Source: Candidatus Omnitrophota bacterium (GTDB lineage: Bacteria; Omnitrophota; Gorgyraeia; JABMRG01). From it: a stretch of 37,129 nt of DNA. Made by a program: the position numbers and the translations under genes. Of the stretch, positions 23,631 to 30,921 are shown piece after piece (positions within the stretch are counted from its first letter, which is position 1; each line of letters opens with the position of its first letter). The stretch is from assembly GCA_013202525.1 (NCBI GenBank), contig JABMQS010000067.1, positions 1 through 37,129 of the forward strand, given 5' to 3'. Under the pieces are notes generated by a model. That model ran no database searches, was not told where the DNA came from, and saw only the letters and a program-made list of their open reading frames with translations.

Positions 23631-24248
23631 TTACTGGGGCGCGAGTTTATATTTCTTTATCAGGGCCTTGAGCTCAGAGGCGGTATCCTGCGTCTTCGAC
23701 AGAAGCAGTTTTGCCTTCATAAGGTCTATGGGCTCGCGCTCAAGCTCACCCTTTAACGCCCCTAATGTCTCATCCATCAGGCTTAATACTTCAAGGTTCT
23801 CCTGGCCCATGTCCCTGAGGCTTTTGGTAAGAGTGTTTATTGCGCCTGCTAAGCTCTGGAGCTCATCGCCTTTTCGCAGCTTCACCTCTAACGTATGGTC
23901 CCCTTCCGCAATGCCTCTTATGATATTCTCCAGCCTGTACCATGGGCCCGCAACGCGGTGTGAGAGTATAATACCAAACCATACCGCGATCGGTACCATA
24001 AGCGCGGTCGACAGGAAGAGCTTTGTGTAGGCACTGCCCAGGACAGCCGTAAGCCTGCCCTGCGGATAGACATTGGCCAGCTTCTCAGAAAGATATGGGA
24101 ATGTGGCAAAATAGACCACGCCGCATGACAGGATAGCGGTCAGGAATATAAAGAATAATATGGTCCCTGTATACTTGAACTGAAAAGCCCTCTTTATAAT
24201 ATATTGTTTTCTCTTCCTGCTAATCATATCTACAGCTCCTTCCTCCAT
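23631..24248 (-). CDS. Two-TM HAMP-domain protein lacking an output domain
   Basis: TM helices ILFFIFLTAILSCGVVYFA and LFLSTALMVPIAVWFGIIL, then HRVAGPWYRLENIIRGIAEGDHTLEVKLRKGDELQSLAGAINTLTKSL (HAMP); about 60 helical residues follow, no kinase, MCP or GGDEF. Confidence 0.8.
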   Translation of the reverse strand: MEEGAVDMISRKRKQYIIKRAFQFKYTGTILFFIFLTAILSCGVVYFATFPYLSEKLANVYPQGRLTAVLGSAYTKLFLSTALMVPIAVWFGIILSHRVAGPWYRLENIIRGIAEGDHTLEVKLRKGDELQSLAGAINTLTKSLRDMGQENLEVLSLMDETLGALKGELEREPIDLMKAKLLLSKTQDTASELKALIKKYKLAPQ

Positions 24249-25219
24249 AAGGTCAAAGACCTTATTACCTCAAGATCAACGCTGCCCTTAGAGCAGCCCT
24301 GGCCGATAAGCATTATCGCTTCCTTAAGCGGCATGTAACGAGTCGGTTTGCCGTCTATCGCGGTCACCAGATCCCCTTTTACAAGTCCCTGATGCGCTGC
24401 CTGAGAGCTGGCCTTTACATCGGCAATAGTAAGGCCGCCCTCTCTCATGACCAACGAAAAACCTATATCTGCAATATTGCCGGCGTCGGCCTTGCCAGAG
24501 AGTTCAGGCTTAATGATCACATCTCTCTCGACCACAAGCACTATCTCGGGCGAGGGATTATCGAGAATGGTCCTGCATACAGCATCCAGCTCCATATAAC
24601 CGGTCAGTTTTCCCCACAGCGAGTAGATGAGATCGCCTTTTTCTATGCCTGCGCGCTCGGCAGCAGAATGCGGCAATACCTGGCGCACCTTTGGCATCTC
24701 ATTTTCAGAGACCAGCAGGAGGCCTGTTGCCGCACTGAGCTTCTCCTCTGCCTTGGGTGAGATCTCCTCTGCCAGCTGCGGTGCATAGACCTTGCCCGAT
24801 TCTTTAAACAGGGCCTGCTTCCTGGCAATATCGTCCCTCAACTGCTTATCAGGACGCCTCAGTAATACGGCGCGCAGGTTTATAAACTTATCCTGCGCCT
24901 CTTTATAGTCGGGGTTTAACTGATAGGCCTTTTTGTAGTAGGAGTAGGCCTTCATGATGTTGCCTTTTTGCTGATGGTAATCCCCCAGTTTTAGGAGATT
25001 CTGCTCCCGCCTGTCATAGAGGATGTCCTTTATCTTCTCCCGCCTTATCTCCTTCTCCCCGTCGACAGTGCTCAAGGTGATCCTATCAAAATAGTTTTCA
25101 ACCACTATCCCCTTCTCTTCATTACCGTCCTTCATAAATACGGTATCTGCATATGAAAAAGAGGTTATGGCTAATACGCATACCAAAACAGATATATATA
25201 CCTTGATGTCTCTGTGCAT
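24230..25219 (-). CDS. Secreted TPR protein with two PDZ domains, no protease domain
   Basis: Signal peptide; DTVFMKDGNEEKGIVVENYFDRITL N-terminal module; TPR YSYYKKAYQLNPDYKEAQ; PDZ-like VLPHSAAERAGIEKGDLIYSL and VKASSQAAHQGLVKGDLVTAIDG. Confidence 0.8.
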   Translation of the reverse strand: MHRDIKVYISVLVCVLAITSFSYADTVFMKDGNEEKGIVVENYFDRITLSTVDGEKEIRREKIKDILYDRREQNLLKLGDYHQQKGNIMKAYSYYKKAYQLNPDYKEAQDKFINLRAVLLRRPDKQLRDDIARKQALFKESGKVYAPQLAEEISPKAEEKLSAATGLLLVSENEMPKVRQVLPHSAAERAGIEKGDLIYSLWGKLTGYMELDAVCRTILDNPSPEIVLVVERDVIIKPELSGKADAGNIADIGFSLVMREGGLTIADVKASSQAAHQGLVKGDLVTAIDGKPTRYMPLKEAIMLIGQGCSKGSVDLEVIRSLTLWRKEL

Positions 25220-25240
25220 AGTTTCTCTTTCGATGTTCCA

Positions 25241-25264
25241 AACCCAGCACTTATTTGCTGGTTC
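25241..25264. repeat. Small stem-loop AACCCAGCA-CTTATT-TGCTGGTT
   Basis: AACC(C)AGCA pairs with TGCTGGTT upstream of the PDZ gene. Confidence 0.55.
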
Positions 25265-25290
25265 TGCGCGTGCACTTCAAATAATTGTTG

Positions 25291-25353
25291 GGTAAATTCG
25301 GCCTTACAGCTTATGTCAGCCTTCGGCTTACATAAGCTGTGGCCTCATTTACC
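25291..25353. repeat. Long hairpin between the HTH-TM gene and the PDZ gene
   Basis: GGTAAATTCGGCCTTACAGCTTATGTCAGCC-TTC-GGCTTACATAAGCTGTGGCCTCATTTACC is near-palindromic with 3-nt loop TTC; overlaps the HTH-TM stop codon. Confidence 0.8.
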
Positions 25354-25681
25354 TGATTGACCTGGCAATAAGATAGATCAGGATCGCAACCAATACAGCT
25401 GCGGCTATATAAAAATCGTTGAAATACAAGGAGTCCCTGATCCGTGAGATATAACCCTCCTTGCCTGAAGGCTGTCTTGAATTCTTGCCGGACTCCGAAA
25501 GCCCTGCCTTTGACTGCCCGGACTTCTTGATCGAAAGGATCTGCTCTTCCTTGAATCTGAGATACATTCCGCCGATCTGGTAAGCGGGGATATCACCCTT
25601 CTTGACAAGACGGCGCACCTCTTCCTCAGAGAGCCCCAGGGAATCTGCTGCCTCTTTAAGTGTAAGTAATTTATCTACCAT
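25349..25681 (-). CDS. Excisionase-type (HTH_17/MerR-like) DNA-binding protein with C-terminal membrane anchor
   Basis: LLTLKEAADSLGLSEEEVRRLVKKGDIPAYQIGGMYLRFKEEQI is a classic helix-turn-helix 17 motif; C-terminal FYIAAAVLVAILIYLIARSIR is a single TM helix. Confidence 0.85.
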   Translation of the reverse strand: MVDKLLTLKEAADSLGLSEEEVRRLVKKGDIPAYQIGGMYLRFKEEQILSIKKSGQSKAGLSESGKNSRQPSGKEGYISRIRDSLYFNDFYIAAAVLVAILIYLIARSIR

Positions 25682-25691
25682 ATGAACCTTA

Positions 25692-26252
25692 TCAGCGGCT
25701 TACCTTTTCACGTGCGACCCAGTTATCTACATCCTCCTTATAGAACTTCCAGGAGCCACCCTGCTTGATAGCCGGGATCTGCTTATCAACGGCCCACTCT
25801 TCCACCATGGAGGATTCAACTTCAAGATACCGGGCGACCTCATCTGCTGCCATCACCTTACCTTTTCCGGAAGTAGATGTGCTATCCGAAACACTCGACA
25901 TCTGGCAGCGACCATTTAATACCGCGCCCTCAGATACACTCAGTATCGGGGTCTTCACGTCACCCTCTATACGGGCAGGTGCTATAATGCTCAGCTTGCT
26001 CGTTGCCAGTATATTACCTGTCACGGTTCCGGCTATGGTAATATCCTCTCCGGTTATATCCGCCGCTACCACTGCCTTCTGGCCTATCGTGAGACTTCCC
26101 TTTGTGTCGAGCTTTCCCTCAAACTGACCATTGATGTGCAGGTTCACAGGGTCTTTAAATGTCATGGTACCCTGCATAGTCGCGTCGACGTCGAGGATCT
26201 TCTCCTCCGGCAGCTCTTTCCTGTTTCTCTTGAGTATTGCCATATCTCTCAC
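25692..26252 (-). CDS. Bactofilin with C-terminal HTH_17 DNA-binding domain
   Basis: TMQGTMTFKDPVNLHINGQFEGKLDTKGSLTIGQKAVVAADITGEDITIAGTVTGNI is the bactofilin repeat; C-terminal MAADEVARYLEVESSMVEEWAVDKQIPAIKQGGSWKFYKEDVDNWVA is HTH_17; true start probably MAILKRN. Confidence 0.85.
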   Translation of the reverse strand: MRDMAILKRNRKELPEEKILDVDATMQGTMTFKDPVNLHINGQFEGKLDTKGSLTIGQKAVVAADITGEDITIAGTVTGNILATSKLSIIAPARIEGDVKTPILSVSEGAVLNGRCQMSSVSDSTSTSGKGKVMAADEVARYLEVESSMVEEWAVDKQIPAIKQGGSWKFYKEDVDNWVAREKVSR

Positions 26253-26264
26253 CCCCTTCTTATC

Positions 26265-26708
26265 TTATTTGGTTTTTTTGCGGGCCAGCCTGCCCTGAAC
26301 CTTGGTCAGAGCAAGCAGGCATATCAATATTGTCACAACAGCGCCTGTAGCCACAATGAAGAGCCCTGATCCTATAGCCAGGCCGACGCCTGCTATAGAC
26401 CAGAGACTGGCTGCGGTCGTCAGGCCTACCACCGAGGCGCGGGATCTTATTATGGTACCTGCCCCGAGAAAACCTATGCCGCTTACCACCTGCGCAGCTA
26501 TCCTGCTCGGATCAGCAGCAGCTACGCCCTGATATATGTCACAGACATGCATCGATGTCAGCATTATAAGGCATGACCCGACGCATACCAGGATGTGCGT
26601 CCTGAAACCGGCGGCCTTCTCATGTATCTCCCTCTCTACGCCTACTATGCCGCCCAGGAGCGCCGCTACCAGCAACCTCAAAAGCATTTGTAGCTCTGAA
26701 ACCATCAT
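26265..26708 (-). CDS. MgtC/SapB family membrane protein
   Basis: LLRLLVAALLGGIVGVEREIHEKAAGFRTHILVCVGSCLIMLTS...RIAAQVVSGIGFLGAGTIIR is the MgtC signature. Confidence 0.95.
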   Translation of the reverse strand: MMVSELQMLLRLLVAALLGGIVGVEREIHEKAAGFRTHILVCVGSCLIMLTSMHVCDIYQGVAAADPSRIAAQVVSGIGFLGAGTIIRSRASVVGLTTAASLWSIAGVGLAIGSGLFIVATGAVVTILICLLALTKVQGRLARKKTK

Positions 26709-26719
26709 CCTGTACCCTC

Positions 26720-27496
26720 CTATATTATCTCATAAGAAGACGCCTTGACCCAACCAATTTTTCCATCTTCGCGTTTTATTTGGCTCCAGCTCCCTTTATG
26801 TCTTATTACGCAGATATTGGCACCTTCATAGATCTTAAAGTGAACAATGCCATCTGCGCGCGGTTCAAATCTCGCACCCAGCTCTTTTTTAAGCACTATC
26901 GCGCTGTCTACATGCTCGGTCTTATATATATTAATTGTAAGCAGTGTAAGACCCAGTAGAAGTATTATAGTAGCTGCCCCTGCTGCAAACACAACAGCTC
27001 CTCTCATGCCTTTCAAAAAGATAAGCACGATCAGGAGCAAAATAATAATCATATAGACAAGGGAGAGGAAGATCGTCAAGGCATCGATGCTGAAATAGTC
27101 GAAGAGGTTTCGCGCGCGCCTCATAAGCCAGATACGCCTGGTATCCATCGGAGGCTGCTCTATAAGGGACCGGGCATATTTCAGGTTTGACCTTAGCGCA
27201 CTATCGCGCGGCGTCAATCTCTTTGCGCGCTCATAATTGAGTACGGCCTTGCCTAAATTTCCGAGCTTGAAGTAACTGTTGCCCAAATCATAATATGTAT
27301 TAGCGCTCTCATACCCATGTTCGATTATCTCCTCATAACCCTTTACAGCAGCCTTAAAGTCCGATGAAGCGTAGGAGTTACAAGCTGCCTCAAATACCTC
27401 ATCAGGCCTAAATGATAAGTCATCCTCTGCCTGGCAGGCAGGCGCTAACAGGAGAATCAAAACCGCTGGCAGAAATATCCTTCTTAAAAATGCCAT
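26720..27496 (-). CDS. batE: BatE-like TPR/SH3 membrane protein
   Basis: TPR repeats (YYDLGNSYFKLGNLGKAVLNYERAKRL), two TM helices, C-terminal SH3-like ANICVIRHKGSWSQIKREDGKIGWVKAS. Confidence 0.8.
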   Translation of the reverse strand: MAFLRRIFLPAVLILLLAPACQAEDDLSFRPDEVFEAACNSYASSDFKAAVKGYEEIIEHGYESANTYYDLGNSYFKLGNLGKAVLNYERAKRLTPRDSALRSNLKYARSLIEQPPMDTRRIWLMRRARNLFDYFSIDALTIFLSLVYMIIILLLIVLIFLKGMRGAVVFAAGAATIILLLGLTLLTINIYKTEHVDSAIVLKKELGARFEPRADGIVHFKIYEGANICVIRHKGSWSQIKREDGKIGWVKASSYEII

Positions 27497-27498
27497 CT

Positions 27499-29337
27499 TT
27501 ATGCCCTTCTAAAAATATTTATGATCTCTTTTGCCTCTTTAAAGAGGCGTGTCCTGTCCTTTTCGCTATATTCAGATGGTGTAAAACGTGCCATATCGTA
27601 GGCCCTGAAAAAATTCCTTACCTTATTCAAGACCGATTCCTTAAAACCCTTCGGCTTCAGCACTTCATCGACCAGGTTCATCGTTATGCCGCCCGGGGGC
27701 AGGTTGAACTTATCACCAAAATATTCCTGAATAACAGTAAAGAGAAGATTGAAAAATTCCTCTGTCTTGTTCTGATCTGATAAGGAGCTGCATCTCCTTA
27801 AGCCCTTCAGTGCCTTTTTGTATGCATACCTTCTGCGCGCATAACTCATATCATTCCTTAGACGCTGGCGCCTCCTGTAAAAGACCAGTATGGATAGATA
27901 GATAAGGACAGGCAGTCCTTGCGAGAATATAAAGAGCTTGTTGGTATAGAGATATGTACCGGTCTTTCTGAACTTACCGGGGGCGTCCTTTATGTATATG
28001 ATATCCCTGCCTATTGCCTCTTTCTTAGGTAAGGTCTTTGCGGCCTCCACCTTTTCCTGGATCTCTGCCTCCTTTGCCTCATGCGCCTCTATGACCTTTA
28101 CGGATAAGGGGCCTTTGCTTATGGTCCTGTAGGCGTCTTTGGCAGGATCGAAAAAACTGAAAGCTATTGCAGGCACCTGCTTAAACGCTGTCGTCTTTGG
28201 AATAAGCACCTGTTCAAAGATCTTGTAGCTATCGGTCTGCTCCTTGAGGATCGGCTCATAAAGTATGTAGTCTTTACCCTCCCCGATTGCAGGTGGTGAA
28301 ACTATATCCATATTACCCTTTCCCGATATCTCCATAACAAGCGTCAGTGGCTGACCTGTCTTTACGTATCCGGAAGGGTCGAGCTTAAGGGTAAACCTGA
28401 AATCCCCGACTGCGCCGTTAAAGCCCGCGGGCCTTGCATCTGCCGGAAGCGGCAGTGCCGTTATATCCTTTGCCTCTGACTCTATCCGGAAGGGCCGCTT
28501 CTTATACTTCTGGTGTATGTCACGCAAGATATTGGATGTGCCGTACTTAGCTGCGCCTGCACCGGAAGCGGCAGATCCCTTTGAAGAAGGGGCCTTTGAT
28601 ATATCCATGCGATTACTGTTTAGAACAGCAGGGCCTAATTTCAGATCACCGGGCCTTGTCGCAAAGACGCTGCTTCGAAAAGTAACGAGATTATAAGTAT
28701 TGCCTTTGATAGTCTTTTTGGATTTCACAGGGGCAATAAACTCACCTATAGAAAAACCTTCATGCTCCAGTGACGGACGGCGTATGTCGGTAAGCATCAT
28801 ATCCCTATAATAAAGACCCATGCCTACATGAAGGATCTCGTTTACGTACACCTCATCCTTTTCCGTCTCTATCAACAGAAATGCCTGTTCCCTGGCATTG
28901 ATCCTCTCCTGCGCTGTAAGACCGGGCTCCTTGGGTAGGCGTTCAGCAGCGCCGCCTAGTACAGTTACACCTACCTCCTTAGATAGATACCTCTGACCAT
29001 CATATAAGATGTCAAAAGGCCCTATATTAAAGGCGCCGGAACGCTCAGGCATAAGGACATAAGTATGCCTGGTCGAATGCACTATCCCACCGTCTATCCT
29101 TGATACAGCATCAGATGACCTGAGATGTGTGGGTTTGAAGCCTTCTATTGCCGGTAACTGAGGAGGGGGCATATCCTTTACACCGTAAAAAGTGAGGTCT
29201 AATCTTATGCTTCCGCTTAATGGGATCTCATCTCTATCTATCTTGAGGGCTATCTCTCCTTGAGCCGCGCAGAGAACGGCTGTGCTGAATAATATCAGAA
29301 AAAATATGGCTAAAGATAGTAACCGGTTTATTCTCAT
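27499..29337 (-). CDS. batD: BatD-like (oxygen tolerance family) protein
   Basis: Signal peptide; IALKIDRDEIPLSGSIRLDLTFYG; KDEVYVNEILHVGMGLYY; GFNGAVGDFRFTLKLDPSGYVKTGQPLTLVMEISGKGNMDIVSPP, typical of BatD. Confidence 0.85.
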   Translation of the reverse strand: MRINRLLSLAIFFLILFSTAVLCAAQGEIALKIDRDEIPLSGSIRLDLTFYGVKDMPPPQLPAIEGFKPTHLRSSDAVSRIDGGIVHSTRHTYVLMPERSGAFNIGPFDILYDGQRYLSKEVGVTVLGGAAERLPKEPGLTAQERINAREQAFLLIETEKDEVYVNEILHVGMGLYYRDMMLTDIRRPSLEHEGFSIGEFIAPVKSKKTIKGNTYNLVTFRSSVFATRPGDLKLGPAVLNSNRMDISKAPSSKGSAASGAGAAKYGTSNILRDIHQKYKKRPFRIESEAKDITALPLPADARPAGFNGAVGDFRFTLKLDPSGYVKTGQPLTLVMEISGKGNMDIVSPPAIGEGKDYILYEPILKEQTDSYKIFEQVLIPKTTAFKQVPAIAFSFFDPAKDAYRTISKGPLSVKVIEAHEAKEAEIQEKVEAAKTLPKKEAIGRDIIYIKDAPGKFRKTGTYLYTNKLFIFSQGLPVLIYLSILVFYRRRQRLRNDMSYARRRYAYKKALKGLRRCSSLSDQNKTEEFFNLLFTVIQEYFGDKFNLPPGGITMNLVDEVLKPKGFKESVLNKVRNFFRAYDMARFTPSEYSEKDRTRLFKEAKEIINIFRRA

Positions 29338-29358
29338 ACTAAGCCGTAATCCTTCCCA

Positions 29359-30921
29359 CTACCAGTCCTTGTAAGGAGTTCTTCTCTCCCCGGAGCCACT
29401 CCTTGAGCCGCTGGCAGGGGCACCTTTTTCATAACCGTAAGCATCTAATAACTTGTCCGCCTCTTCCTTTGTAAGGCTCTTCTGGGACAAGGGCTGTTTC
29501 TCTATATTAGTATAATCCATAGGCCTGGCTCCATCAAGCCCTTTTTGCCCATGTGGCTGCATATCTCGGCGGCCTTTTTCAAGTTCATCAAGGCGCTCCT
29601 TGAGTTGTTGCTGTCTCTTCTTATGCTCCTCATCGAGTTTTTGCCTGTCAGCCTGGTGCTGCTGTTTGAGATCGCTCTCTCTTCTCTCATAATCCTGTTT
29701 GAGCTTCTGCTTCTGGGACTGGTGCTCTCTATTGAGCTCATCCTGGCGGGGCTTCAGCTCATCACCCTGGTGCTCCTTTTCAAGCTGTTGCTTCTTTTGG
29801 TTGAACTCCTCATCGAGCGAATCCTCCCTGTCCCCGCGCTCCTGGTCGAGCCTCTGCTTCTGGTCCTGGTATTCATTATCAAGCTTCTGCTGCTCTGCTT
29901 TCTGATTTTGCGCCCCCTGCTGCCGGGATTGTCGCTGTGCCGCCTTCTCTTGCTGGCGCTGCTTCTTTTGCTGCCGGGCTTGCTGCTGTTTAGCCTCTTG
30001 CTGCTCGGCCTGCTGTTGTTGCGAGTCTTGTTGGCCCTTTTGCTCTTGACTCTTCTGCTCCTTGGTATCCTGCTGAGCCTCCTGCTGCCCGGCCTCTTTC
30101 TCAGTCTGGCTCTCTGCCTGCTCCTTGGCCTGTTGCTGCTGCGTTTCTTGCTGCTGTTGAGGTTGTTGCTGCTGTTGTTGAGGTTGTTGCTGTTGTTGCG
30201 TCTCCTGCTGACTCTCCTGCTGCCGGGATTCCTGCTGTTGCTGCTGTTGTTGAGCTTGTTGCTGTCTTTGTTGCTGCTCAGTTTTTTGCTCTCGCTGCTG
30301 TTGCTGCCGGGGCTGTGACTGAGATTGCGACTCCTTCTTGGGTTGAGTCTTCCGGGAGGTGCCTGCACCGGCTGTGCCGGACGACCTGCCCCCCCTACCT
30401 GCACCTTTTGGCATATCCTGTTTCAATAATAGATAATCGAGCTTCTTCTTTACATACTCATAATTATAGATCGCCTTCTCCGTGGCAGGGTCCAGCTCGA
30501 TGGCGGCCTTATAATAGTGCAGCGCCTCTCTGCAAAACATTATCCCCTTGTTTAACTCATCCGTACAGGCCTCACTTAACCTATATTTACAGTTTCCAAT
30601 ATTGAAATTGGCACTTCTCTCCAGGGTTGCATTATCCGTTGCCATGCTCTTGGTAAATGCCTCTACTGCCTTTTCATACTCACCCTTTTCGTAAAAGACA
30701 TCCCCTCTGTTAAAATTTATTATATTCTCTCTCCTGGCATCGGATGTTTCTGTCAGCGCTGAATCATACCTCTCAAGCGCCTTGTCAAACTCCTCTGACC
30801 TGTAGAAGCGGTCGCCCTCATCAGCCAACTTTACTGCATTGTCTGCGGCAGAAAGGGGAGCTGTAAAAACAAAAAGTAGAATTGCTGACATCACTATAAG
30901 ACAGGTATACCTTGCAATCAT
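29359..30921 (-). CDS. batC: BatC-like TPR protein with long Gln-rich and charged coiled-coil region
   Basis: N-terminal signal and TPRs; then roughly 150 residues dominated by Q followed by charged Q/K/E/D/R helices; lies between batB and batD. Confidence 0.8.
   Translation of the reverse strand: MIARYTCLIVMSAILLFVFTAPLSAADNAVKLADEGDRFYRSEEFDKALERYDSALTETSDARRENIINFNRGDVFYEKGEYEKAVEAFTKSMATDNATLERSANFNIGNCKYRLSEACTDELNKGIMFCREALHYYKAAIELDPATEKAIYNYEYVKKKLDYLLLKQDMPKGAGRGGRSSGTAGAGTSRKTQPKKESQSQSQPRQQQQREQKTEQQQRQQQAQQQQQQQESRQQESQQETQQQQQPQQQQQQPQQQQETQQQQAKEQAESQTEKEAGQQEAQQDTKEQKSQEQKGQQDSQQQQAEQQEAKQQQARQQKKQRQQEKAAQRQSRQQGAQNQKAEQQKLDNEYQDQKQRLDQERGDREDSLDEEFNQKKQQLEKEHQGDELKPRQDELNREHQSQKQKLKQDYERRESDLKQQHQADRQKLDEEHKKRQQQLKERLDELEKGRRDMQPHGQKGLDGARPMDYTNIEKQPLSQKSLTKEEADKLLDAYGYEKGAPASGSRSGSGERRTPYKDW

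Follow-up and report, generated by a model that had tools for sequence, protein, structure and literature searches.

How bactofilins, which form filaments of the cell skeleton, come to the membrane, stay there, and recruit their clients is an active question, and the dedicated partners known are few. What usually brings a bactofilin to the membrane is a peptide of the MFSKKKK type at its N-terminus (PMC12448750). In Myxococcus xanthus, the BacNOP bactofilins form a scaffold that organizes the ParABS chromosome segregation proteins (PMC5703909). In Caulobacter, the polymer of the bactofilin BacA is joined to the single-pass membrane protein PbpC via the cytoplasmic region of PbpC. This bitopic client contributes to membrane attachment and, when overproduced, can substitute for the BacA targeting peptide (PMC12448750). 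PbpC synthesizes cell wall and is largely periplasmic in one of its parts, whereas BacA carries a terminal MTS and lacks a helix-turn-helix (HTH) domain.

RodZ crosses the membrane once and has an HTH on the cytoplasmic side; its working partner is a cytoskeletal polymer, MreB, rather than DNA. The HTH is of the HTH_25 family, and the protein has a periplasmic part. RocS has an N-terminal MerR-type winged HTH and a C-terminal membrane anchor; it binds DNA and contains a coiled coil with DUF536 and an amphipathic helix (PMC11500499). RacA of Bacillus and BldC of Streptomyces are MerR-like winged HTH proteins, the latter packing head to tail. BldC contacts DNA through Lys26, Thr27, Thr29, Arg30, Trp31, Lys33, His46, Arg47, and Arg48, and the R30A and H46E substitutions essentially abolish DNA binding; RacA relies on the Arg equivalent to BldC Arg30 (PMC5859096). 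In CbpM-CbpA, a MerR-like HTH acts as a pure protein binder (PMC4063869).

The window analyzed here is a 37,129-nucleotide stretch from a Candidatus Omnitrophota bacterium (contig JABMQS010000067.1) and belongs, as contig 53, to a 1.64-Mb draft genome. It contains a gene for a bactofilin with a C-terminal HTH_17 domain, followed by a gene for a small HTH_17 protein with a C-terminal transmembrane (TM) helix. As in BacA-PbpC, a bactofilin polymer would be joined to a single-pass membrane protein via its cytoplasmic region, and the membrane partner would contribute to membrane attachment. The partner differs from PbpC in being no more than a tail-anchored HTH protein, and the Omnitrophota bactofilin, unlike BacA, carries the same HTH domain as its partner. 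The BacNOP bactofilins are not known to have an HTH or a membrane-anchored HTH partner.

The small protein shares its two-part arrangement with RocS, but its anchor is a TM helix and its DNA-contact residues are lost. No Pfam match to a coiled coil or DUF536 was found in it, and the linker of its model is disordered. RacA and BldC bind DNA by an Arg where most Omnitrophota members have Glu or Asp, and they are fused to neither a polymer nor a TM helix. CbpM resembles the present proposal in that its HTH binds protein and not DNA, and differs in being a soluble chaperone regulator whose partner is a J-domain (PMC4063869). The HTH of the pair is HTH_17; an HTH_25 (Xre-type) match is absent in the pair and present elsewhere in the source genome. 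A RodZ replacement was considered and rejected, as the source genome encodes MreB and a distinct HTH_25 protein. RodZ, RocS, and RacA are functional comparisons and not families of the pair. Neither a bactofilin-HTH nor such a pair is described in the titles and abstract openings of the literature surveyed, which included few subscription papers.

Layout of the locus

The two ORFs lie on the minus strand, and the gap from the bactofilin stop codon to the tail-anchored gene is 10 bp. The features are listed in Table 1.

Table 1. Features of the bactofilin locus (positions are those of the window).
Feature	Position	Strand	Basis
Bactofilin with C-terminal HTH_17	25692..26243	-	PF04519 1.1e-24 and HTH_17 5.8e-9; AF2; 183 aa
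Bactofilin beta-helical polymerization domain	25902..26198	-	PF04519 match; Foldseek top matches 6rib, 2n3d
HTH_17 (MerR-like winged HTH, predicted) of bactofilin	25707..25844	-	Acidic; Arg30 equivalent is E; Foldseek 6ama, 5i44
Tail-anchored HTH_17 protein, 110 aa	25349..25681	-	Pfam HTH_17 on residues 5-50, 2.6e-11; AF2 model; phylum orthologues
HTH_17 of tail-anchored protein	25532..25669	-	Family: acidic recognition helix, basic wing; Foldseek 5i44, 6ama, 3ucs
Juxtamembrane motif DSLYFNDFYI	25406..25435	-	Family consensus DF[FL]YFNDFYI
C-terminal TM helix, tail anchor, residues 91-109	25355..25411	-	KD19 maximum 2.28
MgtC-family gene, upstream in same operon	26265..26708	-	PF02308 1.2e-39
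Nested inverted repeats, intergenic	25236..25356	.	Dispersed repeat of source genome; outside the system

All three domain matches (PF04519 and two HTH_17) exceed the curated Pfam cut-offs, and the bactofilin match scores 86.9 bits against a cut-off of 27.9. The likely start of the bactofilin is the ATG at 26243, giving 183 aa, and this codon is preceded by AAGGGGGTGA / AAGGGGGTGAGAGAT. An alternative in-frame GTG at 26252, the start in the ORF list, gives 186 aa. The 110-aa protein is composed of an N-terminal HTH_17, a short linker, the motif DSLYFNDFYI, and a C-terminal hydrophobic helix. Its final 19-residue stretch has a Kyte-Doolittle mean of 2.28 and is followed by one residue. Across 206 sequences a median of one and a maximum of seven residues lie beyond the most hydrophobic stretch, as in a tail anchor. 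The sequence-only reading had described adjoining HTH_17 genes, one on a bactofilin and one with a C-terminal TM helix, and Pfam and hydropathy agree with it.

The genes upstream (window 26,720-30,921) encode BatD, TPR, and SH3-like domains and a Gln-rich TPR protein, and resemble a Bat (aerotolerance-type) operon. Downstream (window 23,631-25,219), one gene encodes a TPR/PDZ protein whose N-terminus is signal-like, and another a membrane protein that matches HAMP weakly and has no kinase domain. A LarB-like gene occupies the place of these downstream genes in many relatives.

Inverted repeats are present at 25242-25293, 25291-25353, and 25306-25340. These hairpins, which directly follow the HTH-TM stop codon, are copies of a dispersed repeat with more copies in contigs C72, C6, and C18 of the source genome. 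No significant copy was found in three genomes of the same family. The hairpins at 25241-25353 had been put forward as shared binding sites; they exist, but as a species-specific multicopy repeat, and the shared operator was rejected. The repeat (25236-25356) may be a MITE-like or REP-like element.

Conservation of the gene pair and loss of the bactofilin

Profile searches of 193 genomes sampled phylum-wide found the membrane protein in 175 (E ≤ 1e-8) and the bactofilin-HTH in 165 (E ≤ 1e-15). Both are present in 164 genomes, the membrane protein only in 11, the bactofilin only in one, and neither in 17, a count that includes eight genomes assigned by subtraction. Some absences in all these counts may be assembly gaps. 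The single bactofilin-only genome rests on a partial match. Given 164 genomes with both and one with the bactofilin only, the bactofilin-HTH is essentially never found without the membrane partner. Conservation of the gene pair is phylum-wide and beyond chance, and the co-occurrence in related genomes on which the sequence-only reading had staked the pair is thereby found.

A public genome scan with the motif F[FLI]YFNDFY gave 222 matches. The best 80 are nearly all from Candidatus Omnitrophota, with one contig labeled Pacebacteria and two without a phylum label; this restriction to Omnitrophota is that of the membrane protein's motif alone. The bactofilin-HTH adjoins the membrane-protein gene at 77 of these 80 named loci. 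Of the three exceptions, two start where a contig ends, and only L069 is truly without a bactofilin-HTH. The pair on the contig labeled Candidatus Pacebacteria (L087, PFLP01000057.1) closely resembles the pair of L089 (CG11 Omnitrophica), and the contig is probably mis-binned or mislabeled. An apparent natural fusion of both genes (L129, 4452-5264) was rejected because the join is a run of N, an assembly gap. Among 39 relatives of different genera, the two proteins have matches in 34 and 33 genomes, mostly adjoining, some of the weak matches being free-standing HTH_17 domains.

Not one bactofilin lacks the HTH among 206 distinct pairs, and the median intergenic gap is about 22 bp. The usual gene order is tsaD, mgtC, bactofilin-HTH, HTH/TM, which recurs across the class. 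The bactofilin-HTH is the sole bactofilin of the source genome and of two other genomes checked for a second one. Among 15 genomes without the fusion that were searched, 14 have no bactofilin of any kind, and one has a weak match containing a stop codon. A protein search of plasmids returned matches to the bactofilin core only, none of them spanning the HTH.

The last Y of the juxtamembrane motif is invariant in the 206 pairs, and its D, F, F, and N are 86-96% conserved; these values are inflated by motif-based selection in the 80-locus subset, and the motif is conserved in the unselected set A1 too. Conservation of DF[FL]YFNDFYI at least equals that of the HTH, and the motif is mostly retained where the bactofilin has been lost. 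A second membrane partner acting through FNDFY is possible.

Nine membrane proteins have no adjoining bactofilin (L175, L176, L177, L187, L355-L358, and L069) and represent four lineages. In two of these (three genomes of one family and one of another), the HTH falls beyond nearly all 206 partnered sequences, scored with close relatives left out. Tyr34, otherwise always Y or F, is lost in both, and the membrane segment is near normal. The HTH is unchanged in the third lineage, in which the loss is apparently recent, and in the fourth the membrane motif has drifted instead of the HTH. This pattern gives modest support to a constraint that the bactofilin may place on the HTH of the membrane protein. 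The membrane protein is kept in 11 genomes without a bactofilin and therefore also has a role or partner apart from it. At the loss loci, which are natural bactofilin deletion mutants, the HTH-TM gene mostly lies directly after mgtC.

Predicted folds and DNA-contact residues of the HTH domains

AlphaFold2 (AF2) models were built with 55 orthologues of the bactofilin and 58 of the membrane protein. The bactofilin is modeled as a beta-helix followed by a winged HTH (mean pLDDT 86, core above 90). The membrane protein is modeled as a winged HTH, a disordered linker (pLDDT about 45-65), and a long C-terminal helix at residues 75-109 (mean pLDDT 78). In Foldseek searches of the PDB, the bactofilin model matched Thermus bactofilin 6rib and Caulobacter BacA 2n3d first (E 7e-3 to 4e-2, probability 0.99-1.00), then BldC 6ama and RacA 5i44. 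The membrane-protein model matched RacA 5i44, BldC 6ama, Xis, and CbpM 3ucs. The E-values are modest overall (2e-3 to 1e-1), with probabilities near 1. Because these matches agree on BldC and RacA, both HTHs are predicted to share one MerR-like (BldC/RacA) fold, in line with the similarity noted from sequence; the unrelated folds that would have counted against the sequence-only reading are not seen.

DNA-contact residues were compared in an alignment of 206 bactofilin, 206 membrane, and 30 free-standing HTH_17 domains, all from Omnitrophota genomes. The free-standing domains have a mean charge of +4.5 (recognition helix +1.7), with Thr27 in 97% and Arg or Lys at position 30 in 60%, and look like DNA binders. 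The bactofilin HTH has a domain charge of -2.7, a recognition helix of -0.9, and Glu or Asp at position 30 in 84%. For the membrane HTH, the domain charge is +0.8 and that of the recognition helix -1.6, with Glu or Asp at position 27 in 70% and at position 30 in 53%; its wing is basic (+2.8), and its Arg48 equivalent is invariant. Mean charge at eight contact positions is -0.19 for the bactofilin HTH, +0.09 for the membrane HTH, and +2.37 for the 30 free-standing paralogues. Neither HTH of the pair has the basic or Thr residues found at the recognition-helix contacts of the BldC, RacA, and Xis type.

On these charges and residues, the bactofilin HTH is unlikely to read DNA in the canonical way, and it is doubtful whether the membrane HTH does so. 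Weak, non-specific DNA contact by the latter is possible, given its basic wing and invariant Arg. A common DNA site for both HTHs, as once suggested, is at odds with contact positions that are neutral to acidic in the pair and strongly basic in the free-standing domains. As for the proposed link of nucleoid, cytoskeleton, and membrane, its membrane-cytoskeleton part is the best reading, and its nucleoid part is doubtful with the DNA contacts lost.

Proposed coupling of the bactofilin filament to the membrane

The reading that we favor, with a probability of roughly one half, is that the two genes are a phylum-wide module fastening the only bactofilin filament to the cytoplasmic membrane, with the HTHs as protein-docking modules. 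The bactofilin would polymerize via its beta-helix and display acidic HTHs along the filament. The C-terminal helix of the small protein would lie in the membrane and leave its HTH in the cytoplasm. HTHs without DNA-binding chemistry would serve as docking modules, and in the simplest scheme the membrane HTH, by its basic wing, would dock on the acidic HTH of the bactofilin. Charge is complementary between the two (wing +2.8, bactofilin HTH domain -2.7). Many weak HTH contacts along the polymer could sum to a strong attachment. Direct pairing of the two HTHs, also raised by the sequence-only reading, is possible; we infer such a contact, together with membrane recruitment of the bactofilin and a function in the shape, envelope, or organization of the cell.

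A narrower version, offered tentatively and at somewhat less than even odds, is that a DNA-dead pair of MerR-type HTHs couples the only bactofilin of the phylum to the membrane by heterotypic, BldC-like head-to-tail contacts, one HTH being carried by each subunit of the filament and the other being tail-anchored. Tyr34 of the membrane HTH (196 Y and 10 F of 206) aligns with BldC Ile40. The conserved Leu/Glu/Val/Trp of the bactofilin HTH (columns 129-131 and 139) align with BldC Phe21/Arg22/Val23/Trp31, and these positions and Tyr34 are the two sides of the BldC head-to-tail contact. An arrangement like that of BldC on DNA may thus be possible, and a heterotypic contact of this kind is our guess by analogy. 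With the exact BldC geometry, an acidic residue would lie opposite the Glu that occupies the Arg22 position.

The bactofilin N-termini have a hydrophobic residue at positions 2-5 in 128 of 200 sequences and no bulky one in the other 72, an example of which is MAKKKEEIEEKI. A membrane partner is plausible since these 72 lack an MTS-like hydrophobic residue and would have to reach the membrane in some other way; the targeting peptide thus seems dispensable in this family. The approximately 64% with an MTS-like N-terminus might bind the membrane unaided.

Coevolution was assessed by DCA and by mirror-tree. In DCA of 206 pairs (about 157 effective), the top inter-protein couplings equal the intra-protein ones, include buried core positions, and are dominated by phylogeny. 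Mirror-tree partial correlations for the pair equal those with neighboring control genes (TsaD and LarB-like). An apparent mirror-tree excess of 0.72 against 0.29 for MgtC vanished with better-filtered orthologues and the TsaD and LarB-like controls, and was probably due to non-orthologous MgtC copies. Neither method gave a pair-specific HTH-HTH signal above controls.

This flat result favors a somewhat unlikely alternative in which the genes still form one cytoskeletal module, and each HTH binds a third protein, or the membrane protein binds another membrane partner via FNDFY, rather than the other HTH. Survival of the membrane protein after bactofilin loss, with its juxtamembrane motif mostly intact, and conservation of FNDFY at least equal to that of the HTH point the same way. 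Binding to third proteins fits less well with a bactofilin-HTH that almost never occurs without the membrane protein, with the complementary HTH charges, and with the divergence of the membrane-protein HTH after bactofilin loss in two lineages.

It is quite unlikely that one or both HTHs bind DNA and so link nucleoid, bactofilin filament, and membrane in the manner of RacA-DivIVA or RocS. The nearest folds, RacA and BldC, both bind DNA, RocS of Streptococcus pneumoniae has the same N-terminal MerR-type HTH and C-terminal membrane anchor (PMC11500499), bactofilins organize ParABS in Myxococcus (PMC5703909), and the membrane HTH has its basic wing and invariant Arg. However, the recognition helices of both families are acidic, with Glu or Asp in place of the base-reading Arg, and free-standing paralogues of the same genomes retain the DNA-binding pattern. 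A conserved operator is absent, the local hairpins being a genome-specific repeat. The same absence and the loss of DNA-contact residues make it very improbable that the small protein regulates transcription from the membrane and adjoins the bactofilin for reasons of operon organization only. HTH_17 is commonly a DNA-binding domain and ToxR-like membrane regulators exist, but phylum-wide co-presence with a bactofilin bearing the same domain argues against such a regulator.

The pair is real and phylum-wide, and it is apparently an undescribed form of bactofilin-membrane coupling by two genes, the mechanism of which we infer. It is conserved in nearly the whole of this deep-branching, uncultured phylum, genomes of about 1 Mb among them. 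The bactofilin brings its own putative docking domain, its membrane partner is minimal, and the system could be reconstituted from the two short genes. An HTH_17 annotation in this Omnitrophota pair does not imply a transcription factor. Fastening of the filament through the two HTHs would add a further case of MerR-type HTHs that connect proteins.
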